From assembly GCA_963921795.1 (NCBI GenBank), contig OY997655.1, forward strand, positions 9,728,054-9,792,053: 64,000 nucleotides of DNA, given 5' to 3'. Positions 3,530-63,993 of this stretch are shown here, piece after piece. The notes under the pieces are model-generated. The model searched no databases. It saw nothing but the letters and a program-made list of their open reading frames with translations, and was not told the DNA's origin. The position numbers were made by a program, and so were the translations under genes. Every line of letters begins with the position of its first letter. Within the stretch, counting starts at the first letter, position 1. Origin of the DNA: Nannobrachium achirus. Its lineage: Eukaryota > Chordata > Actinopteri > Myctophiformes > Myctophidae.

Positions 3530-4186
3530 CAGAGCTCCAGCAGCGGTTGCATGCATGCGCTCTGCTCCGCACAGCTCTGAGAATCAGGGGTGTCGCACCA
3601 AATTCTGGGCCCTGGGTACAAGGATTCAGTGTGGGACCCCCTGTGCTTTAACTATTGAAAAATAGCAGATATACAAGCTCACAGCGCGGCACCGAGTGCC
3701 GCGCTGCGAGCTTGTAAATCTGTTATTTTTGAAAAAATCGTGAAAATCTTTGAATATTTCAAATCCTTTTTTGAAAACCCTATGTTTCTATGTTAGTAGT
3801 GCTCAAGCTTTTTCACGTGAAGGACCCCCAAAAATGATAATGTATTTGGCCACGGAACCCCCATCTCAAAATATTTAGTTCCAGAGGCAAAGTTTGACTG
3901 ACAAATGTTCGCTTAAAAATTACATAATATATTCAAAGACTTGCACATAATTTTTCACGACTTTTCAAAAATAGCAGATCTACAAGCTCGCAGCGCGGCA
4001 CTCGGTGCCGCGCTGTGAGCTTGTATATCTGCTATTTTTCAATAGCCAAAGTATGAAATAATTAAGGCCCCTCCTCCACCTCCGGCCCTAGTAACTCAGT
4101 CCCACTTTTCCCCCCCTCGTGACGCCCCTGCCTGAGCTCCAGTAGTGGTTGCATGCATACGCTCTGCTCCGCCCAGCTCTGAGAGC
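3530..4186. repeat. 54-bp direct repeats flanking the hAT element
   Basis: The segment with GTTGCATGCATGCGCTCTGC at 3530-3583 is repeated with about 90 percent identity at 4133-4186, on the two sides of the element at 3585-4130. It is too long for a transposon target duplication, so a short tandem duplication before insertion is more likely. Confidence 0.65.
3585..4130 (+). mobile_element. composite hAT-like element with two hairpins
   Basis: The ends are CAGGGGTGTCGCACC and GTGACGCCCCTG, a short imperfect hAT-type inverted repeat. Inside are two hairpins of the recurrent family in opposite orientation (3657-3731 and 3963-4040), separated by a GGACCCCC-rich hAT-like stretch. Six further copies lie at 33157, 35352, 38510, 42530, 43852 and 51975. 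No clear 8-bp target duplication is seen here; instead the element sits between direct repeats of about 54 bp (3530-3583 and 4133-4186). Confidence 0.7.
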
Positions 4187-4485
4187 ATTGTACGTACACT
4201 ATATTGATAGTTCCTTCATGGGCTGAGGGCTCCTGCTGACAAGCCCATCAATAACAATAAGCCCAACACCTCTCCTCCCACCGGAATATGGAACGCAATT
4301 CCTTTAGCCGACACCAGGAGCCTGCAGGGGTTTGCGTGCACATTCCACCGGGGCAGGGGTCTCTGGACCCACTAGGGTGGGGTGGGGGGATTGGGGCGGT
4401 GCTAAATCTTTGTGTGATAGATGTATTTATTTTCTATTTTCTATTTTTTTTTACTTTAACTACCTGTACCATAGCAACCCCTAGC

Positions 4486-4930
4486 ACTGGTTCCCAAACA
4501 CGGGTCGTGGACCCATTTTGGGTCGCGGACACATTTGTATGGGTCCCTTATTTATTTTTTTCCCCCTACATTTTGTATTTAATTATTATTATTTAAAAAA
4601 ACATATCAAAAAACATTCACCACAAAAGCTAAGATTTCCAAGAATGTCTAAGTAAATTCATTAAGGACTTTTTAATACCTCTAAATTGACAAATTAAACA
4701 TTGGCCAAATTGTCAAATATTAGAGGCAGAAATTGTGAAAATAGCAGATCTACATGCTCAAAACGCCTCGCGTTTGCGAGGCGTTTTGATCATGTAGATC
4801 TGCTATTTTCACAATAGAACCATGTTATACAAAATGTAATGTCTCAACTCTTGGTGCTCGTGGGATGGGGGTCCCCAGTTGAAATATGATTATTTTGGGG
4901 GTCGCAGCCTGAAAAGGTTGAGAACCACTG
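4486..4930. mobile_element. hAT-like element with hairpin
   Basis: It starts with CACTGGTTCCCAAACACGGG and ends with GGTTGAGAACCACTG. The left end resembles the 37498 family and the right end the 37824 family, so it may be chimeric. It holds a strong hairpin at 4732-4815 with outer stem ATTGTGAAAA and TTTTCACAAT and inner stem AACGCCTCGC. No clean target duplication was found. Confidence 0.6.
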
Positions 4931-5112
4931 CTATAGAAGAGTGTTGTTTGCAACAGTTCTCTTTTGAACGAGGTTTAAATCCAGTAAATATGCATCGTGC
5001 CTCCTCCGTGCCTTCTGTCCACTGTGCTGCCTCGTTAGGACCCGATGATTAAAACATTATGAAGTGACCTTTAAAGTTCCAGTGGTCTGCTGGTTGTTCT
5101 ACTTCCAACTCT

Positions 5113-5193
5113 CTCTCTGTGTGTGTGTGTTTGTGTGTGTGCGTGTGTGCGTGTGTGCGTGTGTGCGTGCGTGCGTGCGTGCGTGCGTGCGTG
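5113..5193. repeat. (GT)n/(GTGC)n microsatellite
   Basis: GT repeat grading into GTGC units. Frames through it are artefacts. Confidence 0.9.
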
Positions 5194-5385
5194 GCTGAAG
5201 TTGTGTAGCAGTTCATTTCAGCGTCGCCTGACCACTTGGTCACCCAGGCCTGCCACTGGTCACCCAAGCGGTATTGCAGCTCAGGGTACATTACAAAGTT
5301 ACAAACATGCATAGCTAAATACAGACGCAGTCACACAGGAGGCGGTGTGACCACCGCTCAAAAAAGAAAGCTTGTGCACGTGTAC

Positions 5386-5556
5386 CAGAGTCCTGCACGG
5401 GTCCAACTTTTAGAACCCGCGCCCGCCCGTCATTAATCAGATCCGTGGACCACCCGTCTACCCGTGATTATATAAAAATCAAAACCAGATCCGGCCCGCC
5501 CGTTAAAAAAAGGACCCGTCGCCCGCCCGCCCGCCCCGACCCATTGCAGGACTCTT
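5386..5556. mobile_element. short hAT-like MITE
   Basis: A 171-bp element with the perfect 8-bp target duplication ACGTGTAC at 5378-5385 and 5557-5564. The ends AGAGTCCTGCACGGG and CCATTGCAGGACTCT are inverted repeats. The interior is GC-rich with repeated CCGCCCG. No coding capacity. Confidence 0.8.
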
Positions 5557-5839
5557 ACGTGTACACAACACATTACACACACCTGGAAATAGTGCATGGC
5601 ATTCCAGCTTTACTTGAGTGTTTCTAGATGGTGGTATTTTGCTAGTTTTACTTCTACCTCTACCTCTGACTATCACTCATAGCGGCGTTACCATTACCAT
5701 TCTGTGTGTTCTCTATCTTGGGAGCTCTGATTAAAATCTTTCCACATCAATTACAACAGCCATTAACTTAAAGCCAAGCCGTCGTTCATCTTAATCACGA
5801 GAGTCCAAACCAGCTCTTACAAAGTTCTGGATACTATTA

Positions 5840-6100
5840 TGGTCGTTTGTCGGGCGGAAACCTCGTATCTCCAAGTTTCAAATGTGTACGTTCTTCCGCA
5901 AAGTAAAGTCCTGGCTGCTTCATCATACAAGGCCGTCGCACAAAAGTAGTGAAAACAGCAGATCTACAAGCACACAACGCCTCGCACCGCGAGGCGTTGT
6001 GTGCTTGTAGATCGGCTGTTTTCACTAGTTTAAATCATTTTTAAAATGAAAAATGCAAAACGAACGGTTTTGGACATATACAAGGTTTTCACCCAACAAC
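5840..6100. mobile_element. MITE of the CGTC-TIR family with perfect hairpin
   Basis: The ends CGTTTGTCGGGCGGAAACC and its counterpart near 6085-6100 are inverted. The middle is a strong hairpin (5947-6027) with arms GTGAAAACAGCAGATCTACA and its complement, inner stem CAACGCCTCGC. The same element is nested inside two different hAT families at 32.4, 34.9, 57.2 and 57.9 kb. Its right end abuts an (AT)n tract. Confidence 0.7.
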
Positions 6101-6102
6101 GA

Positions 6103-6103
<1 letters not shown>

Positions 6104-6154
<51 letters not shown>
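6104..6154. repeat. (AT)n microsatellite
   Basis: Uninterrupted AT repeat of about 51 bp. Confidence 0.95.
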
Positions 6155-6157
<3 letters not shown>

Positions 6158-6537
6158 AAAAATCATGATGATAATCTGCAATCTTTACAAAGCCTCAAAC
6201 AAACACCTAAGAAGGCAGCTCTCTTTATCAGACTTACATTCATCTTTGTGACTTAATTAGCTTTGCCTTTTTCTTGTCGTGGCCACGGGATGGATGAGCA
6301 GATATGATCGCTCGGATTCACAGATACGGAACGAGGCAGGAGCCAAATGAAACGCATAAATAAATATAGTAAAAAAAAAGCTTTAAGAACTAGGAAGAGC
6401 ATCAGCCAGCGAGGTGGAACAGTCCGGTGCTTCTCAGATAAAGGGCAATACGTTGCAAACTGCAAACAAAGTTGTAAGCAAGGTTGGTGGGGCACTGCCC
6501 ATAAGTCCGAAATCTCATTAGTTCGAATTTAGTTAAG

Positions 6538-8265: not shown

Positions 8266-9357
8266 TTATTGGCAGTCAATTGCATTCAGTTCATTGGCAT
8301 TCATGGGTGCCAGTTCCCACCTGATGTTGTGTGGGAGTCCAGACTGCTCCAGACCGTACCGAATAACCGCTAGCTCGCATAGCGTCTTCAGCGCCTTCAG
8401 CGTCTTCAGACTAGGACTCAAGTCTAAGATGTACAGGTCTGAGTCTCCAAAAATCACCAGGCAATCTCCCACCATGCAACAGCACATCCATGTCATCTGA
8501 GACGGGCCTTTGCCCTTGAGCGTAACCCTCTCCCACCTTCTGGTCTGTGGAGTGTATTTCCACAGATATTTCCACATCCGAGTACCCCATATGCCACATA
8601 CATACAGCTCTCCATTATAGGCAAAGGCTGTATGACACCTGTGTCCTTTTGGACAAAATGGTGCAGAAGTTGAGAGCTGCCAGCTGTTGGTCTCTGTGTC
8701 AAACACACTGATTCTGCTGTAGTTGCGCTCATCTCTCCCAAATACAAACGTCTTTGTCCCAATGATGGTGGTAGAGAGATCTGACAAAGCAGGTGGTGTA
8801 ATGCCTGTGCTGTTAACTGAAGACCAGACCATTGTGGTGGTGTCCAACTTGTAGATCTCATTAGTGCAATAAGTGCGCTGCTTTTTGTATCCTCCAACAA
8901 CATACATGATCTTCCCCAAGACACAGGCGGAGTGGTGCTTCCTCCCCCTTGGAACGGTCCCAGAAACTCTGGGCTTAAACCATGTGTGGGCGTTGACGTC
9001 AAAGGCATAAAGAACATTGCAGCACTCCTCAGACTCGCACTCCTCAGACATACATCCTCCCCAGATGTAGGCGACATCTTCTATCAGCACGGCTGTGTGC
9101 ATCCAGCGCGTGGAGGGAACCTCACCCCTTCCTCTTCCAGTCACGGGGGGCAACGTCACCCAGCGCAAAGTCACTGTGTTGAACACGGACACCTCCATCT
9201 GGTCCTCAGAGTGCCTGCAGGGCGTTCCAAAGTGGTACACCTTGACACCCGAGACAACATACCTGCCTCCCTTTGATCCTTGTTTAAGGTGCACGGTCCA
9301 ACGGAATTTAAGGCGCACGGAAAAAATGCGTAACCTCTGTATCCTTTTTCCCGCCAT
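8266..9357 (-). CDS. klhdc3-like: klhdc3-like intronless kelch protein, copy 1
   Basis: An uninterrupted 363-residue frame matches KLHDC3 from its second residue (RWTVHL) to near its end. KLHDC3 is known as a kelch-propeller receptor of CUL2 ubiquitin ligases that reads C-terminal degrons; the family is about 380 residues. Visible here are FGTP (43-46, kelch GG lost), WGG (99-101), VGG (154-156), FGRD (206-209, GG lost), CGIW (254-257, lost) and FGDS (303-306, lost), so several blades have decayed glycine pairs. The C-terminal BC-box-like LKTLCELAV (323-331) and LPHNIRWEL remain. A six-residue KALKTL expansion precedes the BC box. The lack of introns indicates retroposition. The start was chosen at the ATG at 9357-9355, which has G at -3 and G at +4; it adds an 18-residue leader not in KLHDC3. 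No poly-A remnant or AATAAA was found. It may be a functional retrogene or a young retropseudogene. Confidence 0.7.
   Translation of the reverse strand: MAGKRIQRLRIFSVRLKFRWTVHLKQGSKGGRYVVSGVKVYHFGTPCRHSEDQMEVSVFNTVTLRWVTLPPVTGRGRGEVPSTRWMHTAVLIEDVAYIWGGCMSEECESEECCNVLYAFDVNAHTWFKPRVSGTVPRGRKHHSACVLGKIMYVVGGYKKQRTYCTNEIYKLDTTTMVWSSVNSTGITPPALSDLSTTIIGTKTFVFGRDERNYSRISVFDTETNSWQLSTSAPFCPKGHRCHTAFAYNGELYVCGIWGTRMWKYLWKYTPQTRRWERVTLKGKGPSQMTWMCCCMVGDCLVIFGDSDLYILDLSPSLKTLKALKTLCELAVIRYGLEQSGLPHNIRWELAPMNANELNAIDCQ
8380..8410. repeat. 9-bp coding repeat before the BC box, copy 1
   Basis: Alternating GCGTCTTCA and GCGCCTTCA units, read on the minus strand as repeated LK(T/A) codons, add six residues relative to KLHDC3. 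Copy 2 has one more unit at 12645-12682. Confidence 0.75.
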
Positions 9358-9398
9358 TTCCGCCTCATCCTTTCTCTCCTTCTTTGATTGTGTACTTC

Positions 9399-9421
9399 TT
9401 ATATAAGCTGCTCTTACGTCA
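9399..9421 (-). promoter_or_regulatory. possible TATA and CRE-like sites, copy 1
   Basis: On the minus strand TGACGTAA (9421-9414) lies just upstream of a TATA-like TTATATAAG sequence (9407-9399), about 42-50 bp before the chosen ATG. Both are kept in copy 2. The pairing of a CRE-like site and TATA box is suggestive only; the resulting 5' leader would be very short. Confidence 0.35.
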
Positions 9422-9489
9422 ACACACAACACCCGACTAAAGCCCCATTTATGATTTCCTTTTCTCTACTTCTTTTTTTAGCTATAATT

Positions 9490-12529: not shown

Positions 12530-13582
12530 TTATTGGCAGTCAATTGCATTCAGTTCATTGGCATTCATGGGTGCCAGTTCCCACCTGATGTTGTGTGGGA
12601 GTCCAGACTGCTCCAGACCGTACCGAATAACCGCTAGCTCGCATAGCGCCTTCAGCGTCTTCAGTGCCTTCAGCGTCTTCAGACTAGGACTCAAGTCTAA
12701 GATGTACAAGTCTGAGTCTCCAAAAATCACCAGGCGATCTCCCACCATGCAACAGCACATCCATGTCATCTGAGACGGGCCTTTGCCCTTGAGCACAACC
12801 TTCTCCCACTTTCTGGTCTGTGGAGTGTATTTCCACAGATATTTCCACGTCTGTGTACCCCATATGCCACATGCATACAGCTCTCCATTATAGGCAAAGG
12901 CTGTATGACACCTGTGTGGAAAAAATGGTGCAGAAGTTGAGAACTGCCAGCTGTTGGTCTCTGTGTCAAACGCACTGATGTTGCTGTAGATGTGCTCATT
13001 TCCCCCAAATACAAACATCTTTGTCCCAATGATGGTGGTAGAGAGATCTGACAAAGCAGGTGGTGTAATGCCTGTGCTGTTAACTGAAGACCAGACCATT
13101 GTGGTGGTGTCCAACTTGTAGATCTCATTAGTGTGATAAGTGTGACGCTGTTTGTATCCTCCAAAGATATACATGATCTTCCCCAAGACACAGGCGGAGT
13201 GGTGCTTCCTCCCCTCTGGAATGGTCCCAGAAACCCTGGGCTTAAACCATGTGTGGGTGTCGACGTCAAAGGCATAAAGCACATTGCAGCACTCCTCAGA
13301 CTCGCACTTACACCCTCCCCAGATGTAGGCGACATCTTCTATCAGCACGGCTGTGTGCATCCAGCGCGCGGAGGGAATCTCACCCCTTCCTCTTCCAGTC
13401 ACGGGGGGCAACGTCACCCAGCGCAAAGTCACTGTGTTGAACACGGACACCTCCATCTGGTCCTCAGAGTGCCTGCAGGGCGTTCCAAAGTGGTACACCT
13501 TGACACCCGAGACAACATACCTGCCTCCCTTTGATCCTTGTTTAAGGTGCACGGTCCAACGGAATTTAAGGTGCACGTGCAA
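12530..13582 (-). CDS. klhdc3-like: klhdc3-like retrocopy 2, start codon disrupted
   Basis: The frame is open from 13582 to the stop at 12530 and aligns throughout with copy 1. It keeps better kelch signatures in places: IFGGY where copy 1 has VVGGY, and FGGN where copy 1 has FGRD. The ATG equivalent to copy 1, at about 13615, is followed after five codons by TAG where copy 1 has CAG. The next in-frame ATG is at 13456 (MEVSVFNTV), which would give 308 residues and lose about 50 N-terminal residues including the first blade. Differences in length from copy 1 are 9, 6 and 9 bp, all in frame. The BC-box-like LKALCELAV follows a nine-residue expansion. It could be a gene with a later start, or a recent pseudogene whose body has not yet decayed. 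Confidence 0.6.
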   Translation of the reverse strand: MHVHLKFRWTVHLKQGSKGGRYVVSGVKVYHFGTPCRHSEDQMEVSVFNTVTLRWVTLPPVTGRGRGEIPSARWMHTAVLIEDVAYIWGGCKCESEECCNVLYAFDVDTHTWFKPRVSGTIPEGRKHHSACVLGKIMYIFGGYKQRHTYHTNEIYKLDTTTMVWSSVNSTGITPPALSDLSTTIIGTKMFVFGGNEHIYSNISAFDTETNSWQFSTSAPFFPHRCHTAFAYNGELYACGIWGTQTWKYLWKYTPQTRKWEKVVLKGKGPSQMTWMCCCMVGDRLVIFGDSDLYILDLSPSLKTLKALKTLKALCELAVIRYGLEQSGLPHNIRWELAPMNANELNAIDCQ

Positions 13583-13656
13583 AATGCGTAACCTCTATAT
13601 CCTTTTTCGCGCCATTTCCGCCTCATCCTTTCTCTCCTTCTTTGATTGTGTACTTC

Positions 13657-19335: not shown

Positions 19336-19339
19336 TTAA

Positions 19340-19945
19340 TCCGTTCAGAACGGGTACACATTATAGTGTATTATTATTTTATGCTTTAACTATTGAAAAA
19401 TAGCAGATATACAAGCTCACAGCGCGGCACCGAGTGCCGCGCTGCGAGCTTGTATATCTGCTATTTTTGAAAAATCGTGAAAAATAGAATTTTGACCCGA
19501 TTCTATAAGTGTCTTTTGAATCCTTCTAAGATTTTTTTAAAAACATATATGTTTCTATGTCAGCAATCTGGCCAGCCATCGTCAAAGAAAAAGGTCCTTT
19601 TCACTTCAACTGGAGCTCAGTTAGTCTGTTCTTGAGAGACTACTATGTCAGTGGTTCTCAAACCTTTTCATTTGAAGGACCCCCAAAATGATATGAATTT
19701 GGCTGACGAACCCCCATCTCAAAATATTTAGTTCCAGGGACCCCCTCAGAAGCAACATTTGAGTTACAAACATTCGCTTTGAAAATGCATAATATATTCA
19801 AAGATTTTCACACATTTTCACGACTTTTTTTCAAAAATAGCAGATCTACAAGCTCGCAGCGCGGCACTCGGTGCCGCGCTGTGAGCTTGTATATCTGCTA
19901 TTTTTCACCGGTTAAAGCATTCAATAATTCGAGGCCCTAAATGGG
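19340..19945 (+). mobile_element. TTAA element carrying the two-hairpin core
   Basis: Flanked by TTAA (19336-19339 and 19946-19949). The right end GGCCCTAAATGGG and the left end TCCGTTCAGAACGGG are of the CCCATTT type. Hairpins at 19393-19470 and 19831-19906 flank a hAT-like GGACCCCC core. Interior sequence matches the composite hAT elements such as 38510-39073, although ends and target site differ. Confidence 0.75.
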
Positions 19946-20186
19946 TTAACGGCCTACAGACCTCCAGAGAAGCACATGAACCCTGGATAACACACAGTGC
20001 TCCAGTGTGTCCCTGGTGTTAATCAGTGCACCTTCTTCTACTACGCTGTTCTTCCCTTGGATGAGATGATCCTTGCCGCAGCTTATTTCCATTCCTTGAA
20101 TGATATCCGTTATGCCAGTATTATCTCCATTATCTTCTTAATCCAGTTTGACCTGGTTGGAACGCTTCCGTGGGAACTCTAGATTT

Positions 20187-21486: not shown

Positions 21487-22076
21487 CCCATTTAGGCCTA
21501 GAATTATTGAATGCTTTAACCAGTGAAAAATAGCAGATATACAAGCTTGCACCGCGGCACCGAGTGCCGCGCTGCAAGCTTGTAGATCTGCTATTTTTGA
21601 AAAAGCCGTGAAAATGTGTGCAAATCTTTGGATATATGTATTTTCAAAGCGAACGTTTGTAACTCAAATTTTGCTTCTGGGTGGTCCCTGGAACTAGATA
21701 TTTTGAGATGGGGGTCCGTGGCCAAATACATATCATTTTGGGGGTCCTTCACATGAAAAGGTTTGAGAACCTCTGACATAGTAGTCTCTCAAGAACAGAC
21801 TAACTGAGCTCCAGTTGAAGTGAAAAGGACCTTTTCTTTGACGATGGCTGGCCAGATTGCTGACATAGAAACATAGGTTTTTTTCCAAAAATCTCAGAAG
21901 GATTCAAAAGACACTTATAGAATCGGGTCAAAATTCTAATTTTCACGATTTTTCAAAAATAGAAGATCTACAAGCTCGCAGCGCGGCACTCGGTGCCGCG
22001 CTGTGAGCTTGTATATCTGCTATTTCTTTTATATTTAAAGCATAAAATATTGCGTCATAATGTGTTCAGGCCTATA
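21487..22076 (-). mobile_element. TTAA element carrying the two-hairpin core
   Basis: It begins after TTAA (21483-21486) with CCCATTTAGGCC. Hairpins are at 21523-21600 and 21954-22028. The hAT-like core is in the opposite orientation to 19340-19945. The right end is decayed and is followed by a hAT insertion at 22085. Confidence 0.65.
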
Positions 22077-25045: not shown

Positions 25046-25435
25046 GCTACACTAAAAGGGATTCTGTCACCTAAAGGGGTACTGTCACTTTAAAAAAAAT
25101 CATCTTAAAATATGAGTTAATTTTTCTATGATGTCATTGTGGGAATGCGCAATTATAACCAATCAAATTAATTGACTGTACTTAGACTACTTACTGTACT
25201 GGTCAGCTGTTGTTGGGGGTCGAGGGGCAGATTACACTGTGACATGAGTTTCAGACTATTTCAGGCAGTTTTCAGAGAGACCATGTGACCTAATGTATCA
25301 TACTATTATAATTTCGGGGCGTGTCAGCGGGCCTTTAATGGAACCGAGCCTTAGTCAGACTCATTGAGTCAGCATCATGTGTATTTGAAGCCCATTTCAT
25401 GCATTGTGATGGATAAACAATAATCCCTGTTATAA

Positions 25436-25709
25436 GGCGCCGTACAGACATCTGCGTCACGCATCATCATCTTATCGTCTGAGAATGGCCACTGGGAGCG
25501 CCGTACTAATGCATTCTCAATGCAAGGTTGTTTGGTGTTTTGTCGTTGCCGTGTCTCTTCAAGAGCGTACAGGCTGCGGTTGAGCTAGAGACACGGCAAC
25601 GACAAAAAACCAAACAACCTTCCATTGACAATGCATTAGTACGGCGCTCCCAGTGGCCATTCTCAGACGATAAGATGATGATGCGTGACGCAGATGTCTG
25701 TACGGCGCC
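25436..25709. mobile_element. 274-bp near-perfect palindrome, Harbinger-like
   Basis: The arms begin GGCGCCGTACAGACATCTGC and pair over about 120 bp with very few mismatches; the loop is about 30 bp near 25557-25588. Flanked by TAA at 25433-25435 and 25710-25712, a 3-bp duplication typical of PIF/Harbinger MITEs. No coding sequence is believable because any frame here is mirrored by the other arm. Confidence 0.8.
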
Positions 25710-25712
25710 TAA

Positions 25713-29077: not shown

Positions 29078-29643
29078 CCCATTTGAACGGGTACACATTT
29101 TGTGTATCGTTATTTTATGCTTTAACTATTGAAAAATAGCAGATATACAAGCTCACAGCGCGGCACCGAGTGCCGCGCTGCGAGCTTGTAGATCTGCTAT
29201 TTTTGAAAACTCGTGGAAATTAGAATTTTGACACGATTCTATAAGTGTCTTTTGAATCCTTCTAAGATTTTTGGAAAAAACTGTCAGCAATCTGGCCAGC
29301 CATCGTCAAAGAAAAGGTCCTTTTCACTTCAACTGGAGCTCAGTTAGTCTGTTCTTGAGAGACTACTATGTCAGTGGTTCTCAAACCTTTTCATGTCAAG
29401 GACCCCCAAAATGATATTTATTTGGCCACGGACCCCCATTTCAAAATATCTAGTTCCAGGGACCACCCCAGAAGCAAAATTTGAGTTACAAACGTTCGCT
29501 TTGAAAAATACATATATTCAAAGATTTGCACACATTTTCACGACGTTTTCAAAAATAGCAGATCTACAAGCTCGCAGCGCGGCACTCGGTGCTTGTATAT
29601 CTGCTATTTTTCACTGGTTAAAGCATTCAATAATTCTAAATTA
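29078..29643 (+). mobile_element. TTAA element carrying the two-hairpin core
   Basis: Starts after TTAA (29074-29077) with CCCATTTGAACGGG. Hairpins are at 29129-29205 and 29549-29614; the second has lost part of its inner stem. The right terminus is decayed. Confidence 0.65.
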
Positions 29644-30180: not shown

Positions 30181-30659
30181 CATACATGGTCAAAACTGGC
30201 GGCCCGGGGGCCACATGTGGCCCCCACCTTCACTTAATGTGGCCCGCAGGTTGATATTGGATTACTGTTATATTACTGATTTCAGCCGTTACAATTCTAA
30301 ACATGGAAAAATTACCCGCTTTAATTACTTCAGTCTATATCAGTAGCTTAATGACTAGTATTAAAATGTTATTGTATTTTTTATGTCCAATGCATTTGTA
30401 TTTAAGTTCATAAAGTTAACATACCGTAAGAACATATGAAAGCATTTGAATGAATGAATAAATAAATAAATAAATAAATGAATACATACAAGTTAGTTTT
30501 CAGCATTACAATTCAAAAATAGCAAAAATTGCAGATCTATACAAGCTCAAAATTTGAGCTTGTAGATGGGCTATTTTTGCTATGTACATGCATTGTGGCC
30601 CTCTGGGGTGAGTGTGGAAATATAGTGGCCCTCTCCATCATTACAGTTGCCCACCCCTG
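30181..30659. mobile_element. hAT-like element, GGCCCG-type, with hairpin
   Basis: 479 bp between perfect 8-bp duplications CACTAAAG (30173-30180 and 30660-30667). The right end TTGCCCACCCCTG and the interior GGCGGCCCGGGGGCC are of a common vertebrate hAT type. At 30514-30580 it holds a hairpin with arms ATTGCAGATCTATACAAGC and TTGAGCTTGTAGATGGGC, in which the outer stem is also self-complementary. Confidence 0.8.
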
Positions 30660-33156: not shown

Positions 33157-33672
33157 CAGGGGCGTCACAAGGGGTAGGAAAGTGGGACTGAGTTACCAGA
33201 GCCCAAGGTGGAGGGGCCCTAGTAACTTTATCTATCGAAAAATAGCAGATATACAACAAGCTCACAGCGCGGCACCGTGTGCGAGCTTGTAGATCTGCTA
33301 TTTTTGAAAAGTCGTGAAAATGTGCGCACATCTTTGAATATATGTATTTTTTAAGTGAACATTTGTTACTCAAATTTTGCTTCTGGGGGGGTCCCTGGAA
33401 CTAAATATTTTGAGATGGGGGTCCGTGGCCAAATACACATCATTTTGGGGGTCCTTCACATGAAAAAGTTTGACCATCACTGACATGGAAATATAGGTTT
33501 CTTGCACACATTTTCACAATTTTTCAAAAATAGCAGATCTTCAAGCTCGCAGCGCGGCACTCGGTGCCGCGCTGTGAGCTTGTATATCTGCTATTTTTCA
33601 ATAGTTAACATTCATGGGGGGCCCACAGTGAATCCTTGTACCCAGGGCCCAGAATTTGGTGTGACGCCCCTG
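33157..33672 (-). mobile_element. composite hAT-like element with two hairpins
   Basis: Starts CAGGGGCGTCACAAGGGG and ends GTGTGACGCCCCTG; orientation opposite to 38510-39073. Hairpins at 33235-33307 and 33524-33601. No clear 8-bp duplication. Confidence 0.7.
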
Positions 33673-33989: not shown

Positions 33990-34343
33990 TAGACCTGTCA
34001 CAATTATTACATAATCGTCTAATCACAATTATTTGACATAATCGCAATTGTTTTTTTCATAATCGTCATAATCGTTTCCATGCTGAAAAATGTTTTCAAA
34101 CTTTTTTTTTAAATAGTGGAAAAGCTCAAGCTTGTAAATCGACTATTTCCACTTTTCCGTGTCATTTTTTAAGTATAAAGTTGTCTCTTTGTATATTTAG
34201 GTTATGTGTCATACAGTGATCTGCCATGTGCAACTTCAAAGCCTAAAAGCCAAACAGATAATTCTCAACGACAAAAACACAATTAAATTGTTAATCACAA
34301 TTATTTGAGTGACAATTAATCGCCATGTATCGTGACAGCCCTA
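33990..34343. mobile_element. hAT-like element, CACAATTATT type
   Basis: 354 bp with perfect 8-bp duplication TTCACATG (33982-33989 and 34344-34351). Ends TAGACCTGTCACAATTATT and CGTGACAGCCCTA. It contains a degenerate hairpin of the recurrent family at 34111-34160 (AAGCTTGTAAATCGACTATT). Confidence 0.8.
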
Positions 34344-34731: not shown

Positions 34732-35260
34732 CAGGGACGTGCTGGCCATTGGGAAAAGCGGGACAACTCCCGAACGGCCGGTCTAGGAAAAATATAAAAA
34801 TAAAATGGCGGCCTTCGTTCCATTTTGGGGGCTGGGCGGCCAACAAAATAAATCGTCACTGTCGGGCAGAAACCTCGTATCTCCAAGTTTCAAATTTGTA
34901 CATTTATTTCGCAAAGCAAGGCCCTGCTTCATCATACAAAGCTGTCGCACAAAAGTAGTGAAAACAGCAGATCTACAAGCACACAACGCCTCGCACCGCG
35001 AGGCGTTGTGTGCTTGTAGATCGGCTGTTTTCACTAGTTTAAATCATTTTTTTAAATGGTTTTGGACATACAAGGTTTCCACCCGACAATGACGAAATAT
35101 AACTCATATAATTGGCCCACTGGCTTGTCACTTGTCATGATCTGAAATGACACATCTTTGAGTAGCAGCAGCGCTATAGAGAGATCTCTCTCTATAGCGT
35201 GCAATGAGGGCCTCTCCAACTCGTTTTCCCAGGCTGAATCAGGGGCCCAGCACGTCCCTG
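34732..35260. mobile_element. hAT-like element, CAGGGACGTGCTGG type, copy b
   Basis: 529 bp, target duplication CACAGGTC and CACAGGGC (seven of eight). Carries a full CGTC-TIR MITE at about 34854-35090 with a near-perfect hairpin at 34956-35036, and a second palindrome GCTATAGAGAGATCTCTCTC at about 35170-35200. Confidence 0.8.
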
Positions 35261-37497: not shown

Positions 37498-37797
37498 CAA
37501 TCACTGGCTCGGGGCCCATTTGTGGGTCGCTGATTTTTAAGGGTTTTTGTTTCCTACATTTTGTTTTAAAATATAATTATTTAAAAAAAAAAAAAAATTG
37601 CCAGAAAAGCAAAGCAAAAAACAAATTCAATGATTGTTTTCTTCAATCAAAAACTAGTGAAAAATCTACAAGCTCACAACGTGGCGCGAAGTGATGCGTT
37701 GTGTGCTTGTAGATCTGCTTATTTTCACTAGTTTTGGTCCCAGGCTCACGTCTTTTTTTTGGGGGTCTCGACCTGAAAAGCTTTGAAACCAGCACTG
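37498..37797. mobile_element. hAT-like element, CACTGGTTCCCAA type, unit A
   Basis: Target duplication TTGTAGAT and CTGTAGAT (seven of eight). It holds a hairpin (37651-37732) with outer stem CTAGTGAAAA and TTTTCACTAG. The duplicate in unit B is at 41479-41807. Confidence 0.8.
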
Positions 37798-37823
37798 CTG
37801 TAGATCATAGCTACAGTATATGG

Positions 37824-38157
37824 CTGTGGTTCTCAACCTTTTTAGGCCGCGACCCCCAAAACAATCATACTTTAACTGGGGACCCCCTCCCTGACGAGCA
37901 CTAAGAGTTGAGGCATTACATTTTGTATGACACGGTTCTATTGTGAAAATAGCAGATCTACATGCTCACAACGTATGTAGATCTGCTATTTTCGCAATTT
38001 CTGCCTCTAATATTTGACAATTTGGCCAATATTTAATTTGTAATTTTAGAAATGTGCAGATACCCTCCATACACTTATGGTTGAGTGAGAAAACAATGTT
38101 GCACATTAAGTTAATCATCTGGGGAACCTCACCCGACCCACAGGTTGAGAACCGCTG
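37824..38157. mobile_element. hAT-like element, CAGTGGTTCTCAACC type, unit A
   Basis: 334 bp with perfect 8-bp duplication GTATATGG (37816-37823 and 38158-38165). The hairpin at 37939-37998 has outer stem ATTGTGAAAA. Reference copy for fragments at 1-111, 6932, 16886 and 41834. Confidence 0.9.
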
Positions 38158-38509: not shown

Positions 38510-39073
38510 CAGGGGTGTCGCAGCAAACTCTGGGCCCCGGGTACAAGGATTCACTGTGGGGGGCCCCCTGTGCTTTAACTATTGAAAAATAGCAGATCTA
38601 CAAGCTCACAGCGCGGCACCGAGTGCCGCGCTGCGAGCTTGTAGATCTGCTATTTTTTGAAAAATCATGAAAATCTTTGAATATTTCAAATCCTTCTAAG
38701 GGTTTTTTGAAAAATCTAAGTTTCGATGTCAGTGGAGAGCTCAAACCTTTTCATGTGAAGGACCCCCAAAATGATATTTATTTGGCCACGGACCCCCATC
38801 TCAAAATATTTAGTTCCAGGGACCACCCCCAGAAGCAAAATTTGAGTTACAAATGTTCGCTTAAAAAAATACATATATTCAAAGATTTGCACACATTTTC
38901 ACGACTTTTCAAAAATAGCAGATCTACAAGCTCGCAGCGCGGCACTCGTGCCGCGCTGTGAGCTTGTATATCTGCTATTTTTCAATAGCTAAAGTATAAA
39001 ATAATTAAGGCCCCTCCACCACCTTGGGCCCTAGTAACTCAGTCCCACTTTCATACCCCTTGTGACGCCCCTG
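38510..39073 (+). mobile_element. composite hAT-like element, unit A, reference copy
   Basis: 564 bp with perfect 8-bp duplication AACACAAT (38502-38509 and 39074-39081). Ends CAGGGGTGTCGCAGC and GTGACGCCCCTG. Hairpins at 38581-38660 and 38908-38984 lie in inverted orientation around a GGACCCCC-rich core. Confidence 0.9.
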
Positions 39074-42529: not shown

Positions 42530-43060
42530 CAGGGGTGTCGCACCAAATTCTGGGCCCCGGGTACAAGGATTCACTGCGGGGGCCCCCGTGCTTTAACTAT
42601 TGAAAAATAGCAGATATACAAGCTCACAGCGCGGCACCGAGTGCCGCGCTGCGAGCTTGTAGATCTGCTATTTTTGACAAAATCATGAAAATCTTTGAAT
42701 ATTTCAAATCCTTCTAAGGTTTTTTTTTTTTAAATCTATGTTTCGATGTCAGTGGAGCTCAAACTTTTTCATTGAAGGACCCCCAAAATGATATGAATTT
42801 GGCCACGGACCCCCATCTCAAAATATTTCGTTCCAGGGACCCCCAGAAGCAAGTTACAAATGTTCGCTTAAAAAATACATATATTCAAAGATTTGCACAC
42901 ATTTTCACGACTTTTTAAAAATAGCAGATCTACAAGCTCGCAGCTTGAGCTTGTATATCTGCTATTTTTCAATAGCCAAAGTATAAAATAATTAAGGCCC
43001 CTCCACCACCTTGGGCCCTAGTAACTCAGTCCCACTTTCCTACCCCTTGTGACGCCCCTG
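42530..43060 (+). mobile_element. composite hAT-like element, unit B
   Basis: Duplicate of 38510-39073 with AACACAAT on both sides. The second hairpin (42915-42975) has lost its inner stem but keeps the outer arms. Confidence 0.85.
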
Positions 43061-44654: not shown

Positions 44655-45900
44655 ACATTTATCCACAGAACTGCCACAGCTCCATACAATCTATCCCACA
44701 CGCTGCAAGAAAAAAACTCAGAACATCATCAAAGATAGCAGCCATTCCGCCCATACCCTGTTCTCACTCCTCCCATCCAAAAAAACGTTACCAGAACATC
44801 AAATCGCCGTTTCAGTAATATATATCTATATATTTTTGCCCAGGCAGTCAGGTTGCTCAATGAAGGGTTGAAACATAGGCACTGAATGCACTTTTAAAGT
44901 GTACACTGTTACACTGTATGGTATTGTATGTTGTGTTTGTTGGGTCTTGTTTTTGTGTGGCCTGCATGGTATGTGGGTCCACATGGTATGTGGGTCCACA
45001 TGGTATGTGGGTCCACATGGTATGTGTGTGGCCTGCATGGTATGTGGGTCCACATGGTATGTGGGCCCACATGGTATGTGGGTCCACATACCATGTGGGC
45101 CCACATGGTATGTGTGTGGCCTGCATGGTATGTGGGTCCACATGGTATGTGGGCCCACATGGTATGTGGGTCCACATACCATGTGGGCCCACATGGTATG
45201 TGTGTGGCCTGCATGGTATGTGGGTCCACATGGTATGTGGGCCCACATGGTATGTGGGTCCACATACCATGTGGACCCACATGGTATGTGGGTCCACATG
45301 GTATGTGGGTCCACATGGTATGTGTGTGGCCTGCATGGTATGTGGGTCCACATGGTATGTGGGTCCACATGGTATGTGGGTCCACATGGTATGTGTGTGG
45401 CCTGCATGGTATGTGGGTCCACATGGTATGTGGGTCCACATGGTATGTGTGTGGCCTGCATGGTATGTGGGTCCACATGGTATGTGGGCCCACATGGTAT
45501 GTGGGTCCACATGGTATGTGGGTCCACATGGTATGTGTGTGGCCTGCATGGTATGTGGGTCCACATGGTATGTGGGTCCACATGGTATGTGGGTCCACAT
45601 GGTATGTGGGTCCACATGGTATGTGTGTGGCCTGCATGGTATGTGGGTCCACATGGTATGTGGGTCCACATGGTATGTGGGTCCACATGGTATGTGTGTG
45701 GCCTGCATGGTATGTGGGTCCACATGGTATGTGGGTCCACATGGTATGTGGGTCCACATGGTATGTGGGTCCACACTCTTGTCGGTCACTGTGACCTTGT
45801 CTTTGTGTAATAAGGCTGAGAATGCTCTTACTTGTTCACAAGCATTTCATTGTATCTATACTTGGATGTGTGACAATAAACCTGAACCTGATTTAATTCC
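44655..45900 (+). pseudogene. LINE 3' end with minisatellite in its 3' UTR
   Basis: At about 44703-44800 one frame reads KKTQNIIKDSSHSAHTLFSL and then, shifted, KKRYQNIKSPF. This matches the C-terminal pattern of fish LINE polyproteins (KA.NIIKD..HP...LF.LLPSGRRYRS). Downstream, CACTGTTACACTGTATGG and the terminal ATTTCATTGTATCT...GACAATAAACCTGAACC are typical LINE 3' UTR. A 17-bp tandem array (44956-45775) has grown inside the UTR. Frameshifts show the copy is dead. Confidence 0.65.
44956..45775. repeat. 17-bp minisatellite, quasi-palindromic
   Basis: The main unit is GTCCACATGGTATGTGG, in which CCACAT and ATGTGG pair around GGT; TGTGTGGCCTGCATGGTATG units are interspersed. Because neither strand has a stop in the unit, long frames of 280-378 residues exist on both strands; they are artefacts. 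At about 45083, 45171 and 45262 the loop reads ACC instead of GGT. Confidence 0.95.
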
Positions 45901-47576: not shown

Positions 47577-47960
47577 CAGGGACGTGCAGAGAATGTTATA
47601 GAGGCAGGGACTGCAATTTCTAAAAGGGTCCTTTTGGTGAAAATATAGAAAATAGCAGACCTCCAAGCTCACAATGTGTCGCTCTGCAGTGCGTTGTGAG
47701 CTTGGAGGTCGGCTATTTTCGGTGCTTGATACCACACTGAACTAAGCATGATCAAGTCAATACTGGAGATGTGGCGTTACGGCATAAGATGCTGCATTCA
47801 AGTTCAGGAGAGTTTGGAAAAGGCAATTCTCTTGAATCTCTTAAATGCTGCCTTCAGGTATGGCATGGAAAGAGGGCATTTGGCATTTCTTTCACCAAAC
47901 TGCATTCTTCATGGTCTGGAGAGGGCACTTTTTACAGACGGATAAAAGGGCAGGGGCTCA
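47577..47960. mobile_element. hAT-like element, CAGGGACGTGCAG type
   Basis: Left end CAGGGACGTGCAGAGAATG; the right part with CACTTTTTACAGACGGATAA and GGCAGGGGCTCAAGCCCCCTTT is shared with 51612-51695, where the terminus GCACGTGCCTG is preserved. The hairpin at 47648-47720 has changed arms that still pair (CAGACCTCCAAGC and GCTTGGAGGTCGG). Confidence 0.6.
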
Positions 47961-48321
47961 AGCCCCCTTTGATGTTCTTAAAACAGTTGCAATCACGGTT
48001 AAAAGGTACATTGCACTGAACTGTCCAAAATGATTACAAGGAGCTCAGTTTTAAAGACATCTGGAGTTCATTCCAAGACCAGCCGTTGGGCCGCTGACAG
48101 AGAAAAGCTGCCTTTTACCAAACTCTGTCTGAGCATTATAGGAACCCATAATAATATAATAATCACGGCATATCCATCCGTGAAAGCAGGAAAGATGCAC
48201 TGTGAAAGAGTTCTAGAGAGAGTGAGACAGACTGACTGAACAGGATTGGTAAGTTAAAGGAAAAGGCAGTTTGGGAGGGTTGGGGGGGGGCGGCCTATCG
48301 GCTCCCAGGGATCAGAGCTTA

Positions 48322-48762: not shown

Positions 48763-49440
48763 ACCAATATCGACCGGGATCGCATCATTTAACCACCTTA
48801 ACCAATTGTTTTATGCTTTAGCTATGGAAAAATAGCAGACATACAAGCTCACAGCGCGGCACCGAGTGCCGCGCTGCAAGCTTGTAGATCTGCTATTTTT
48901 GAAGGGGAAAAAAAGTGAAAATGTGTGCAAGTCTTAGAATATATTGACCCGATTCTATAGGGTGTCGCTCTCCATTCCGACATGTCGCCACTCCGAAATT
49001 GACTTCTTGTTGTCGGAGTGGCGACACTTCCATAGGGGTTAAGTTTAGGGTAAGGGTAGAGATAGGGTTAGTGTCGGAAAGGAGACATTTCGGAATGGCG
49101 GGGTGTAAACGATTCTATACATTTCTTCTAAATCAGTGGTTCTCAGACTTTTTCATGTCAAGGACCACCCAAAAGGACATGTATTTGGCCGCGGACCCCC
49201 CGTCTCTAAATATGTTGTTCCAGGGACCCCCCCAGTAGCAGAAATGTGAGTTAACAAACGTCTGCTTTGAAAAATATATATTCAAAGATTTGCACAATTT
49301 TCCAAAAATAGAAGATCTACAAGCTCACATCGCGGCACTCGGTGCCGCGCTGTGAGCTTGTATATCTGCTATTTTTCAATAGCCAAAGTATAACATATTG
49401 GTTAAAGTGGTTCAAATCTAGCATTCCCGCTCTAAATGGC
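48763..49440 (+). mobile_element. TTAA element carrying the two-hairpin core
   Basis: Flanked by TTAA (48759-48762 and 49441-49444). Hairpins at 48826-48901 and 49302-49378. A 151-bp fold-back element is nested at 48960-49110. Confidence 0.75.
48960..49110. mobile_element. fold-back element with 9-bp target duplication
   Basis: GATTCTATA is duplicated at 48951-48959 and 49111-49119. Ends with CCATTCCGACATGTC and GACATTTCGGAATGG are inverted, an inner hairpin CGCCACTCCGA...TCGGAGTGGCG is present, and telomere-like TTAGGGTAAGGG follows. A 9-bp duplication suggests the Mutator-like class; that assignment is inference. Confidence 0.7.
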
Positions 49441-51974: not shown

Positions 51975-52542
51975 CAGGGGTGTCTCACAAATTCTGGGCC
52001 CTGGGTACAAGGATTCACTGCGGGGGGCCCCTGTGCTTTAACTATTGAAAAATAGCAGATACACAAGCTCACAGCGCGGCACCGAGTGCCGCGCTGCGAG
52101 CTTGTAGATCTGCTATTTTTGAAAAAATCATGAAAATCTTTGAATATGTCAAATCTTCTAAGGTTTTTTTGAAAAACCTATGTTTCGATGTCAGTGGTGC
52201 TCAAACCTTTTCATGTGCAGGACCCCCAAAATGATATGTATTTGGCCACGGACCCCCATCTCAAAATATTTCGTTCCAGGGACCCCCCCAGAAGCAAAAT
52301 TTGAGTTACAAATCTTCGCTTAAAAAATACACATATTCAAAGATTTGCACACATTTTCACGACTTTTCAAAAATAGCAGATCTACAAGCTCGCAGCGCGG
52401 CACTCGGTGCCGAGCTGTGAGCTTGTATATCTGCTATTTTTCAATAGCTAAAGTATAACATAATTAAGGCCCCTCCAACACCTTGGGCCCTAGTAACTCA
52501 GTCCCACTCCCCCCCCCCCCCCCCCCCCCTTGTGACGCCCCT
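51975..52542 (+). mobile_element. composite hAT-like element with two hairpins
   Basis: Perfect 8-bp duplication AGTGGACT (51967-51974 and 52543-52550). Hairpins at 52045-52122 and 52367-52445. A run of about 22 C lies near the right end. Confidence 0.9.
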
Positions 52543-52564
52543 GAGTGGACTTCTCCCCAGGACA

Positions 52565-57035: not shown

Positions 57036-57577
57036 CAGGGACGTGCTGGCCATTGGGAAAAGCGGGACAGCTCCCGAACGGCCTGTAATTCCCGGCCTGG
57101 GTCCAGGCCGACCATTAGGAAAAAAATAAAAATAAAATGTCGGCCTTCGTTCCATTTTTGGGGTTGGGTGGCCAACAAAGTAAATCGTCACTGTCGGGCA
57201 GAAACCTCGTATCTCCAAGTTTCAAATGTGTAGATTTCTTCGCAAAGCAAAGCCCTGCTTCATCAGACAAGGCTGTCGCACGAAAGTAGTGAAAACAGCC
57301 TGCGAGGCGTTGTGTGCTTGTAGATCGGCTGTTTTCACTAGTTTAAATCATTTTTAAATGATAAATAGTACATGTATAACAAACGGTTTTGGACATACAA
57401 GGTTTCCACCCGACAACGACAAAATCTAACTCATGTAATTGGCCCAGTGGCTTGTCGCTTGTCATGAAATCTTTGAGTGGCAGCAGCGCTATAGAGAGAG
57501 ATCTCTCTCTATAGCGCGCAATGAGGGCCTCTACAACTCTTTTTCCCGGGCTGAATCAGGGGCCCAGCACGTCCCTG
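57036..57577. mobile_element. hAT-like element, CAGGGACGTGCTGG type, copy c
   Basis: 542 bp with target duplication GACGGAAT and GACGGATT (seven of eight). Contains a CGTC-TIR MITE whose hairpin has lost its left arm (57287-57340), and the GCTATAGAGAGAGATCTCTC palindrome at about 57488-57520. Confidence 0.8.
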
Positions 57578-57774: not shown

Positions 57775-58326
57775 CAGGGGTTCCCGAACCTTTTTGTCTC
57801 AGGGCACCCCATAAATATTGTTTTAATCCGAGGCACCCCTACATTATAATTTTCACTCCCAGCACCTTATATTTATAGCATATCGTCGTTGTCGGGTGGA
57901 AACCTTGTATGTCCAAAACCCTTCATTTTGTATTTATCATCTATAAAATGTACTAAACTAGTGAAAACAGCAGATCTACAAGCACACAACGCCTCGCATC
58001 GCGAGGCGTTGTGTGCTTGTAGATCGGCTGTTTTCACTAGTTTTGTGCGACGGTCTTGTGTGATGAAGCAGGGCTTTGCTTTACCAAAAGAAGTACACAT
58101 TTGAAACTTGGAGATACAAGGTTTCTGCCCGACAGTGACCGTATTTTAGTGATTATGTTGCGGGGGAAAACGTTAAGATAATAGCCATTTTGCTTAGAAC
58201 TGAGATACTAAATATTTTTTTTAAGTGTCCAGATAAATTCCAAATATTATCAAATTATCTCGCGGCACCCCTGGACTGCCGTCGCGGCACCCCAGGGTGC
58301 CCCGTCACCCACTTTGAAGACCCCTG
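57775..58326. mobile_element. hAT-like element, CAGGGGTTCCCGAACC type
   Basis: 552 bp with perfect 8-bp duplication TGATAGAG (57767-57774 and 58327-58334). Ends CAGGGGTTCCCGAACC and TTTGAAGACCCCTG. Nested inside (about 57886-58140) is an inverted CGTC-TIR MITE with a near-perfect hairpin at 57957-58041. Confidence 0.9.
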
Positions 58327-61800: not shown

Positions 61801-62600
61801 ACTTGATCCTCATACAGGAGCTCATAATAACATCCACATGCTGCATAGAAGCCTCAGTAATGTTCTTAATCACACCATCCATTACAGTAGAAGTCATTCT
61901 GTTCACGGTGCAAAGCAAAGCTAACCTGATTCGTGTCAATAATACCAACCGTGGGTCTGATAGAAATGCTTTATCTCCATACCTGCAGACGGAGTCTGAC
62001 TCCCAAGCAGAATCGATGACAGTAATTATTTTCGTATTTGCTCAGCCCTTTGTCACAATCAGAACCAAAGTCTAATACTATGCAAACAAGCTCTGCAAAA
62101 CCCAGTCGTCTTGCACGCTCGATTACGGCTTCACGTCAAACGAGAAAATGCCAGTGGAATTAAGCTTTATGACTGATTGGGAATTGAAGTGTGGCTCATT
62201 GTTGCACGGAGCATTGAGCTTGATGCCTGCTAAAGGGCCGTAAAGACTAAGAGTTGTCTTGCATTGTAATCACTTCTTGATTATTGTTTTGTTAACGCTG
62301 TGAGGGATAGTATTGGGCATGTCACATGATAACACACATGTCATGAGTCATGTTCTACATGAGTCTTGTTCCCTCCCCGTCCATCAGTCTATCGGCTGCC
62401 GTTTTGTTAAAATAACATCATTGAGCTCATTTTCCTACTGATATTGATCCCAACTGACTGATGGTCTCTTTGCAGAATTGCCCCTGTCGATCAGTGTCCC
62501 CAGCAGACCCCAGCTGCCCTCATAGCATACCATAAGCATATCTCTACTTCTACAGATCCATCTAAACATAATAGAATATTGTGTAATATAATATATATAT
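61801..62600. other. no gene seen
   Basis: No coding signal. Part of 61850-61900 (TGTTCTTAATCACACCATCC) repeats 61022-61042. Confidence 0.4.
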
Positions 62601-62614
62601 AATATCTGTAATAA

Positions 62615-62740
62615 ATGGTAAATGGTAAATGGTGCATTTATATAGCGCCTTTATCCAAAGCGCTTTACAGAGATTGTGCATTACATTCACCCATTCACGC
62701 ACACATTCATACATCGATGGCGGAGGAAACCATGCAAGGC
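62615..62740 (-). mobile_element. SINE 3' end, copy c (reverse)
   Basis: Matches the tail of 17365-17610 on the minus strand: GCACAATCTCTGTAAAGCGC and GATAAAGGCGCTATATAAATG. 5'-truncated. Confidence 0.75.
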
Positions 62741-63039
62741 ACAAAAAAATTTCTTCTCTTGTTGTTGAAAGGAAAGTGGTAGAATTATACTTTAGTGATT
62801 ATTTTTGTCTCGGATCTGTTGAAATAGCGAGGGACAGATATTGACAATAAATCTGCTTGGAGGTCTGACTACAAAATGATATCACGGCTTAAAAGCCCCA
62901 TGGAGCTGATCACAAAACACTGCATGTTGATGCGATGAAGCAGGATCAGGAAACAGAGAAATAGGTGTTTTCCTTTTTCCTTTTTTTCCCCTCTTTTTTT
63001 TCAGAGGTTACATTAGAATGAAACTACAATTTCAATGTA

Positions 63040-63110
63040 GGCACATAGCATACACTCTTATCCAGAGCGACTTGCAATACGCAAGGTAACACGCTGTAGA
63101 GTGCAAAATA
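63040..63110. repeat. ACTCTTATCCAGAGCGACTTGC retro-tail fragment
   Basis: ACTCTTATCCAGAGCGACTT is a common end motif of fish SINEs/LINEs. Only the fragment is seen. Confidence 0.4.
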
Positions 63111-63551
63111 AATCTGTACTTGAAACTGCAGGATACCTTCTGAACCTGGCTAGCATCAGACTCTAAAGAACACACTATCAGAATAACAATCTTGTACATT
63201 GGAACTACAGGGTACCAAGTAAACAATGAACCTATAGGCAGCATCTGTCTAAACAACATGCATGCTATCGCAGAATGCCGATCTTGTACGTCGAAACCAC
63301 AGGGATAATACCAGGTAAACAATGGGCTGCTACTAGAGCATCTGTTTAAATCAACAGGGGAAATCAGAGTGGAGGTGTAGATGAGATGAGAATGTTTAAG
63401 GGTACATATACAGATGAACCTTCCATGCTCCGTAGGTCTCCCGTCCTCGGCCTGTCGGCTCATGTTTCGTCCCCCCGGCGCAGAGAGCATAGCATTATGT
63501 ATGGGCTCAAGGTCAAGCAAGCGTGCCGGGGCGTGTTTGGAAATGGATTAA

Positions 63552-63993
63552 CCCGTCAAAACCGGGAACGCATCTCTTTTAGAATTGAACCACTTTAACC
63601 ATTATTTTATGCTTTAACTACTAAAAAATAGCAGATATACAAGTTCACAGCGAGCAATTTGTGCAAGACTTTGAATATGTTGATAAACATCTTCTAAATC
63701 CTAAGGTTTTTGAAAAACACATGTTTCTATGTTCATTGGTTCTCAAACCTTTTCATGTCAAGGACCCCTAGAATTATATGTATTTGGCCACCGACCACAT
63801 CTCAAAATATTTGTCTCAGGGACCCCCCAGAAGCAAATATTGGAGTTACAAAATGTTCTTCAAAGATTTTCACACAAAAAAATCCAGACTTTTCAAAAAT
63901 TGAGTGCCGCGCTGTGAGCTTGTATATCTGCTATTTTTCAATAGCTAAAGCATAAAATAATGGTTGAGCGTCTAACGCGATGCGTTTGAGGTA
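63552..63993 (+). mobile_element. TTAA element with reduced hairpins
   Basis: TTAA at 63548-63551 and 63994-63997. The left end CCCGTCAAAACCGGGAACGC preserves the family terminus well. The left hairpin has lost its right arm and the right hairpin its left arm; the GGACCCC core remains. Confidence 0.7.

Follow-up and report, generated by a model that had tools for sequence, protein, structure and literature searches.

The 64,000-nucleotide stretch of the Nannobrachium achirus genome analysed here (contig OY997655.1, positions 9,728,054 to 9,792,053; hereafter the window) is populated by DNA transposons, among them miniature inverted-repeat transposable elements (MITEs), that carry one and the same short hairpin in their interiors (Table 1), and this presence of a hairpin module across transposon superfamilies is a real and unusual finding. 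The arm of the hairpin, AAATAGCAGATCTACAAGC, matches the window 72 times at up to three mismatches, as opposed to a mean of 0.04 in 100 shuffles, and a chance origin is therefore rejected. At up to five mismatches, the 80 arms found (2 in one mononucleotide shuffle) resolve into 31 pairs and 18 lone arms, or 49 places, in good agreement with the initial annotation of the window, which had reported an inverted-repeat motif in about 45 places. Ten of the 11 coordinates it gave as clear examples start 2-12 bases before an arm, and at the eleventh, 37651, only the right arm reaches threshold; the string it placed after the arm is recovered as TCACA(A/G)CGC following ...ACAAGC, and its literal version beginning with CTCACA has no match.

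The hairpin core spans ~69 nt, with arms of ~33 nt each and a tiny loop between them. Among the 106 paired hairpins in the loci examined, 61 are 69-71 nt long, 40 are shorter, many of them having lost the centre, and 5 are longer. All nine stretches that were folded (eight in the window and one in locus L053) are far more stable than their shuffled counterparts, with z-scores of -6.3 to -15.5, confirming that the inverted repeat folds. In 20 family representatives, the inverted run continues past the hairpin edge for a mean of 4.1 bases (0 to 11) versus 1.6 in controls and does so in family-specific form (ATTGTGA/TCACAAT in family C, ATGCTGA/TCAGCAT in family F and CTTTGCCAA/TTGGCAAAG in family D), so that the palindrome is often slightly longer than the part shared by all families and the hairpin unit reaches ~90 bp in some of them. 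The window yields no match in Rfam at the gathering threshold and no tRNA, and two exact 21-base patterns have no match among the IMG/VR viral contigs.

Searched across the whole 1.66-Gb genome with at most one mismatch, the 21-base arm returns 192,531 forward and 192,217 reverse matches, 384,748 in all, and its reversed control returns none. An unbiased sample, made up of one 10-kb stretch at the 3.00-Mb mark of each of contigs C1-C20 (20 in all) and including ~11 kb of N (loci L009-L028; loci L001-L008 were chosen from motif hits and are biased), holds 179 arms at up to four mismatches, a background of ~0.9 arms per kb. Judged by this sample, the window is not special in its arm content, and if the 200 kb are typical, looser arm matches number roughly 1.5 million genome-wide.

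The ends of the carrier elements place the same hairpin module in families of different origin. Perfect 8-bp duplications surround the elements at 30181-30659, 42530-43060 and 51975-52543 in the target-duplication scan, and another 8-bp duplication surrounds L027:6884-7366, where the ends are uncertain by a base; by their sequence, carriers of this kind appear to behave as hAT elements. The same scan found no 8-bp duplication for the copies at 3585 and 4485, and the class of the 33996 and 47578 families is one that we presume from the resemblance of their ends. Other carriers have TTAA at both ends together with inverted repeats starting TTAACC, with two to four arms each (L001:1016-1615, L002:1407-1593, L021:3753-3943 and L026:1333-1542), and the elements of family B end in CGTC...GACG and measure 230-257 bp in the hairpin-bearing copies among those listed. 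The distinct termini and target duplications described initially are thus found at three window elements with 8-bp duplications and in the TTAA and CGTC ends, and no duplication was found for the CACTGGTTCCCAA copy at 4485-4930. Locus L041, which duplicates the L024 stretch, was excluded from the divergence, context, duplication and end scans and kept in the alignment of family D junctions. Genome-wide, hAT domains are abundant, and 150 of 1653 candidates were scored. Across the 12 hAT transposase loci examined, arms at up to three mismatches occur only at L029 and L040, where their membership in hAT elements is uncertain, and a diverged family B copy is present at both L034 and L035. As a separate observation, part of a family E hairpin, together with its flank, occurs in three tandem copies at L013:4060-4420 (TTAGCTGGAGGTTGGCTATATTC...).

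To compare hairpin surroundings, the flanks of the 106 hairpins were clustered, those of 40 bases or fewer being dropped, and a stricter comparison was restricted to hairpins of exactly 69 nt with flanks of at least 60 bases, which gave 13 context groups (A with 36 copies, B with 6, C with 5 and ten others with single copies, of which at least two resemble relatives of C and A). In the 78 pairwise group comparisons, arm identity mostly lies at 0.6-1.0, and by two or three bases past the edge it has dropped to ~0.2-0.4. Because of this collapse just outside the arms, one common ancestor element for all families is rejected, in support of the initial statement that descent from a single element would not suffice. 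When 20 representatives and one piggyBac arm were compared outside the edge, 16 of 800 between-family comparisons reached at least 10 of 14 matches, versus 2 in shuffles, an excess that arises because a few family groups share extra arm bases. The sharpest case is the pair formed by family B and the R element at L009:4714, which agree in 7 contiguous bases on the left, 57 of 69 hairpin positions and 10 of 10 bases on the right, and in 31 of 100 positions beyond; they have a hairpin unit of ~86 bp in common and nothing outside it.

Not all contexts are independent. The CAGGGGYGTC hAT and the TTAA families of group A share, as assessed by eye, their interior, their hairpins and ~15-24 bp outside the hairpins, which argues for one acquisition with swapped ends, and the 3' ends of the 37651 family (O) and the 4485 family (C) are related, with 79% identity over 38 bases. 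With these relationships taken into account, the independent hairpin contexts in the window number six or seven, compared with the at least seven unrelated families of the initial count. In each of groups A and C, again by eye, a single inner flank continues into several (two or more) distinct outer ends, the breaks lying ~10-24 bp beyond the hairpin. In the 13-group comparison, each of the better-sampled families has hairpin variants of its own. Within families, arms are less diverged than flanks when pooled (48 of 1298 versus 194 of 2968 sites; odds ratio 0.55, p about 2e-4), a difference that is significant alone only in B and not in A3, C or D, and in which sites are not independent; the counts, recomputed from rounded rates, include only copies that cover the reference in full (2 to 10 per family), with the two-copy A5 set excluded. 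Changes that compensate each other within a copy are few (3 seen versus about 0.7 expected in families A-D, for hairpins of at least 48 nt), and within-copy correction between arms is accordingly rejected as the main homogenizing process.

Around the hairpin edges, the longest direct repeat has a mean length of 3.45 bases in the 20 representatives and 3.24 bases in 380 mismatched-flank pairs, in which the left flank of one family was set against the right flank of another; nothing here points to a target duplication made by the hairpin. In family D, the ten hairpin-less loci aligned have ten different junctions, most of which keep outer-arm remnants of varying length. In family F, 39 of the 40 scored places cross the joined flanks from base 1 over 151-179 bases versus 164, an exact-flank pattern recovers 32 copies whose gaps take 17 different lengths between 9 and 32 (2-32 allowed; the commonest in 5 of 32), and three of the four junctions printed retain arm remnants. 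In family B, 15 of 40 scored places span the joint over 116-186 bases versus a 143-base query, and in family C the hairpin-poor copies examined resemble deletions, either partial or more extensive. Hairpin-less sequences served as queries in the D, F and B searches, which, apart from the F pattern search, score 40 places only and are therefore no measure of how frequent hairpin loss is. As the junctions are varied rather than representing one pre-insertion sequence, the hairpin-less D, F and B copies look like recurrent deletions of the palindrome and not like empty sites. The initial annotation had considered a hairpin that transposes into transposons, to be checked by looking for target duplications at its edges and for carriers with and without it; hairpin-less carriers do exist, but neither a uniform pre-insertion junction nor an edge duplication was found, and self-transposition of the hairpin is not supported.

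A route by which the hairpin could enter a new context is suggested by family D, a TTAA element with the ends TTAACCACTTGAACC...GGTTCAAGTGGTTAA. Flanks outside the element are common to D copies, which indicates that D multiplied as part of a larger repeat. A joined form of the host sequence, with one TTAA at the joint, occurs at one genomic place with 2 mismatches in 29 bases, its control nowhere, and with a longer joined-host query 3 of 40 scored rows span the joint, over 105, 132 and 102 bases versus 119. On this sequence evidence, D appears to be one example of the hairpin riding into another repeat. Together with the ~86-bp unit that is all B and R share, the nested D element supports the repeated capture that had been offered among the possible explanations.

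Furthermore, the motif stands at a fixed place beside piggyBac transposase domains, an addition to the original observation. A Pfam search of the genome scored 116 piggyBac domains, 105 of them without an internal stop, and three families, with frames of 541, 562 and 589 amino acids, were picked for their several near-identical copies and read in part. In all three open-frame families the hairpin motif has a fixed placement beside the domain, usually in repeated units. The 541-residue family has a 141-bp stretch with an arm 333-336 bp after the transposase domain in six of six listed copies, and 75-80%-identical units ~2-3.1 kb upstream in five of the six. All six listed copies of the 562-residue family have a complete hairpin 357 bp upstream, and 572-residue relatives carry units spaced by 671-673 bp. 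The 589-residue family has two to four units 746-752 bp apart in eight of nine listed copies, the ninth (on contig C3) having one unit nearby and two about 5 kb off. Two side observations concern the same domains: the ~0.5 Mb at C2:71346413-71843994 holds 16 of the listed piggyBac transposase domains, every one on the + strand and 15 in open frames of more than 500 residues, and those at C18:60345001-60346080 and C1:82177671-82178753 stand in frames of 2461 and 3951 residues, which are possibly fusions.

We propose, with a probability that we put at about one half, that the hairpin is a passenger module whose home is probably the TTAA/piggyBac elements, and that other MITEs captured it on rare occasions, after which each carrier family amplified it. 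In such a model, a palindromic cassette with a core of ~69 bp, and up to ~90 bp in all, would reside inside DNA transposons and be carried along by them, its likely home being the non-coding sequence beside the transposase domain of TTAA/piggyBac-type transposons, often in repeated form, as well as short TTAA-ended elements. Rare entry into an unrelated MITE could occur when a hairpin-bearing TTAA element inserts and its remainder is later lost or, alternatively, by recombination at the palindrome. After capture, copies would be multiplied by the transposase of the carrier family itself, and the hairpin, being palindromic, would often be deleted to leave hairpin-less copies.

Several points weigh against this proposal. 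The direction of transfer, presumably from piggyBac elements to the others, is unrooted, and it is only by TTAA ends that the piggyBac families would be linked to the TTAA MITEs. At ~0.9 arms per kb of background, arms near the three piggyBac families amount to no enrichment, and because arms are common everywhere it is only their fixed and repeated placement that argues for residence there; moreover, the 3' stretch of the 541-residue family has only one arm at threshold, and the units of the 589-residue family have partial arms and no full hairpin. The joined D host was found once at up to three mismatches, and the rows spanning its joint vary from 102 to 132 bases versus 119. No flanking TTAA pair was recognised by eye around the hairpins of B, C, E, F, 30181 or 33990, and capture by recombination is possible for these families since no TTAA scar was recognised. 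As for loss, arm remnants are scant or absent at the D junctions of L041 (the query copy), L042 and L046, the junctions of B and most of those of F are known by length only, and a minority of true empty sites may be present among the hairpin-less copies.

The alternative that fares best, which we consider possible though on balance unlikely, makes the hairpin a crossover site rather than a passenger: the palindrome would break or stall replication, and repair or template switching between hairpin copies would join the interior of one element to the ends of another. The constant inner flanks and differing outer ends of A and C would be direct products of such exchange, the B/R unit ends abruptly to its left and right and has no TTAA, and the inverted extension past the edge is what template switching across a palindrome would give, as the lower divergence of arms is what conversion would give, significant on its own in B only. 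However, the exchange requires hairpins on both partners beforehand and leaves the first entry unexplained, and compensatory changes within copies are few.

A function of the hairpin for its carrier is possible, and a hairpin retained because it aids its carrier, for example by offering a putative binding site to a host protein or to the C-terminal domain of a transposase, or by giving rise to small RNAs, is not exclusive with the passenger model; as the explanation of the pattern, however, we regard selection as improbable. The repeated units beside piggyBac transposase domains and the strong folds of all nine stretches would suit it, as would, by analogy, the palindromes at piggyBac and piggyBat ends, which according to PMC11707139 are bound by C-terminal cysteine-rich domains. 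Against it, hAT and TTAA ends cannot, as is well established, share one transposase, the position of the hairpin varies between families, and hairpin-less D, F and B copies are easily found, albeit with hairpin-less queries. A bolder extension, doubtful in our view yet somewhat less so than selection as the general explanation, would make the hairpin a hyperparasitic cis-module, born in piggyBac elements, acquirable by any MITE and raising the copy number of its carrier, such that the most successful MITE families would be those that captured it, whatever their transposase. Least probable of all is a self-mobile hairpin, that is, a palindromic mini-transposon inserting into other transposons: it would agree with the sharp edges across context groups, the about 20 contexts and the extra arm bases shared by some family groups (16 of 800 versus 2), but edge direct repeats no longer than those of controls, the varied D, F and B junctions with their arm remnants in three of four printed F cases, and the family-own variants, by which each family resembles one acquisition followed by vertical spread, all speak against it.

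Short abundant palindromes scattered through a genome are known from Rickettsia palindromic elements and mitochondrial double-hairpin elements, and MADE1-like solo-terminal-inverted-repeat MITEs and the teleost Angel elements are likewise short palindromic DNA; unlike the latter two, the hairpin described here has no target duplication at its edges. The yeast mitochondrial mobile DNA family and bacterial REP elements are also short, abundant and scattered. Unlike these and the Rickettsia and mitochondrial palindromes, the hairpin copies here spread inside transposons, and no sign of independent insertion was found. Searches of open-licence literature, mostly of the beginnings of abstracts, found no matching description of hairpin or shared modules in hAT and piggyBac elements, and six motif strings have no match in print among open-licence papers. 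A parallel is offered by the V domain of short interspersed elements (SINEs), which PMC6887750 presents as one of the highly conserved SINE domains common to otherwise unrelated non-autonomous families, with MER6 as a MITE that holds a V domain. Both cases involve a short conserved module that otherwise unrelated non-autonomous families have in common, with MER6 as an instance of one that crosses element classes; there, however, a SINE domain is found in a Mariner-derived MITE, whereas here a hairpin occurs in DNA transposons with two or more types of ends as well as next to piggyBac transposase domains. The subterminal repeats of piggyBac and piggyBat described in PMC11707139 are similarly palindromic, yet they measure about 14-19 bp and lie within about 120 bp of the tip, unlike the ~69-90 bp hairpin beside the gene, which is also found in hAT-type MITEs.

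A near-identical hairpin of ~70 to 90 bases, carried by anything from long transposons to tiny defective copies, suggests a building block that spread across transposon classes, and the 384,748 near-exact arm matches in the 1.66-Gb genome would make it a case of modular exchange across DNA-transposon superfamilies at very large scale. Should the hairpin help its carriers, the success of MITEs would have a testable cause; otherwise the hairpin marks how transposons capture each other's pieces. In either case, classifying these repeats by shared sequence alone would mistakenly merge families that are unrelated.

Table 1. Elements and hairpins identified in the window (positions are those of the window)
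Feature	Position	Strand	Hairpins and remarks
A-hAT MITE CAGGGGYGTC...GACGCCCCTG	3585-4130	+	Two inverted hairpins, 3660-3728 and 3969-4037; duplication not found by scan
A-hAT copy	42530-43060	+	Hairpins 42605-42673 and 42919-42967; 8-bp duplication AACACAAT on both sides
A-hAT copy	51975-52543	+	Hairpins 52050-52118 and 52371-52439; 8-bp duplication AGTGGACT
TTAA-type element with A interior	19336-19949	+	Hairpins 19398-19466 and 19835-19903; ends by eye; left end degenerate (TTAATCCGTTCAGAAC), missed by TTAA scan
TTAACCACCTTAACC... element with A interior	48789-49414	+	Hairpins 48830-48898 and 49306-49374; GGTTCA at right end, differing by one base from TTAA
Family C, CACTGGTTCCCAA...GGTTGAGAACCACTG	4485-4930	+	Hairpin 4739-4808; palindrome 4732-4815; no target duplication found
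Family B, CGTC-type MITE	5844-6104	+	Hairpin 5953-6021; palindrome 5948-6026; ends by eye
Family B, CGTC MITE	34854-35094	+	Hairpin 34962-35030
Family B, CGTC MITE	57884-58140	+	Hairpin 57965-58033
Family B, CGTC MITE	57186-57421	+	Hairpin partly deleted (57316)
hAT MITE with GCGGCCC end	30181-30659	+	Diverged hairpin 30526-30576; 8-bp duplication CACTAAAG
CACAATTATTACATAATCG family	33996-34260 (ends approximate)	+	Decayed hairpin ~34110-34155; better copies at L010:3628 and L048
Family O, ending GGGGGTCTCGACC...CACTG	37560-37800 (5' end approximate)	+	Hairpin 37651-37731; 3' end related to that of family C
Family C hairpin, centre deleted	37939-37999	+	
Family E, CAGGGACGTGCAG element	47578-47968 (3' end approximate)	+	Hairpin 47650-47718
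A hairpin, left member of A-hAT	38587-38655	.	Right member 38913-38980; duplication 7 of 8
A hairpin	21528-21596	.	Partner 21957-22025
A hairpin	29134-29202	.	Partner 29553-29609, centre deleted
A hairpin	33240-33303	.	Partner 33528-33596

Apart from the hairpin carriers, the window contains two long uninterrupted frames on the minus strand, at 8266-9465 and 12530-13594, of 399 and 354 residues and with KLHDC2/KLHL20/DRC7-type kelch repeats (E about 1e-90), which are apparently a kelch gene pair. A minisatellite at 44965-45775 consists of 46 copies of the 17-bp unit CATGGTATGTGGGTCCA, and six stop-to-stop frames of about 300-390 residues, three per strand, run through it; the inverted repeats at 45.0-45.6 kb belong to this unrelated array and were rejected as copies of the hairpin. 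Finally, two long inverted repeats lie at 25435-25710, with 124-nt arms of 98% identity, and at 2458-3050, with 155-nt arms of 95% identity.

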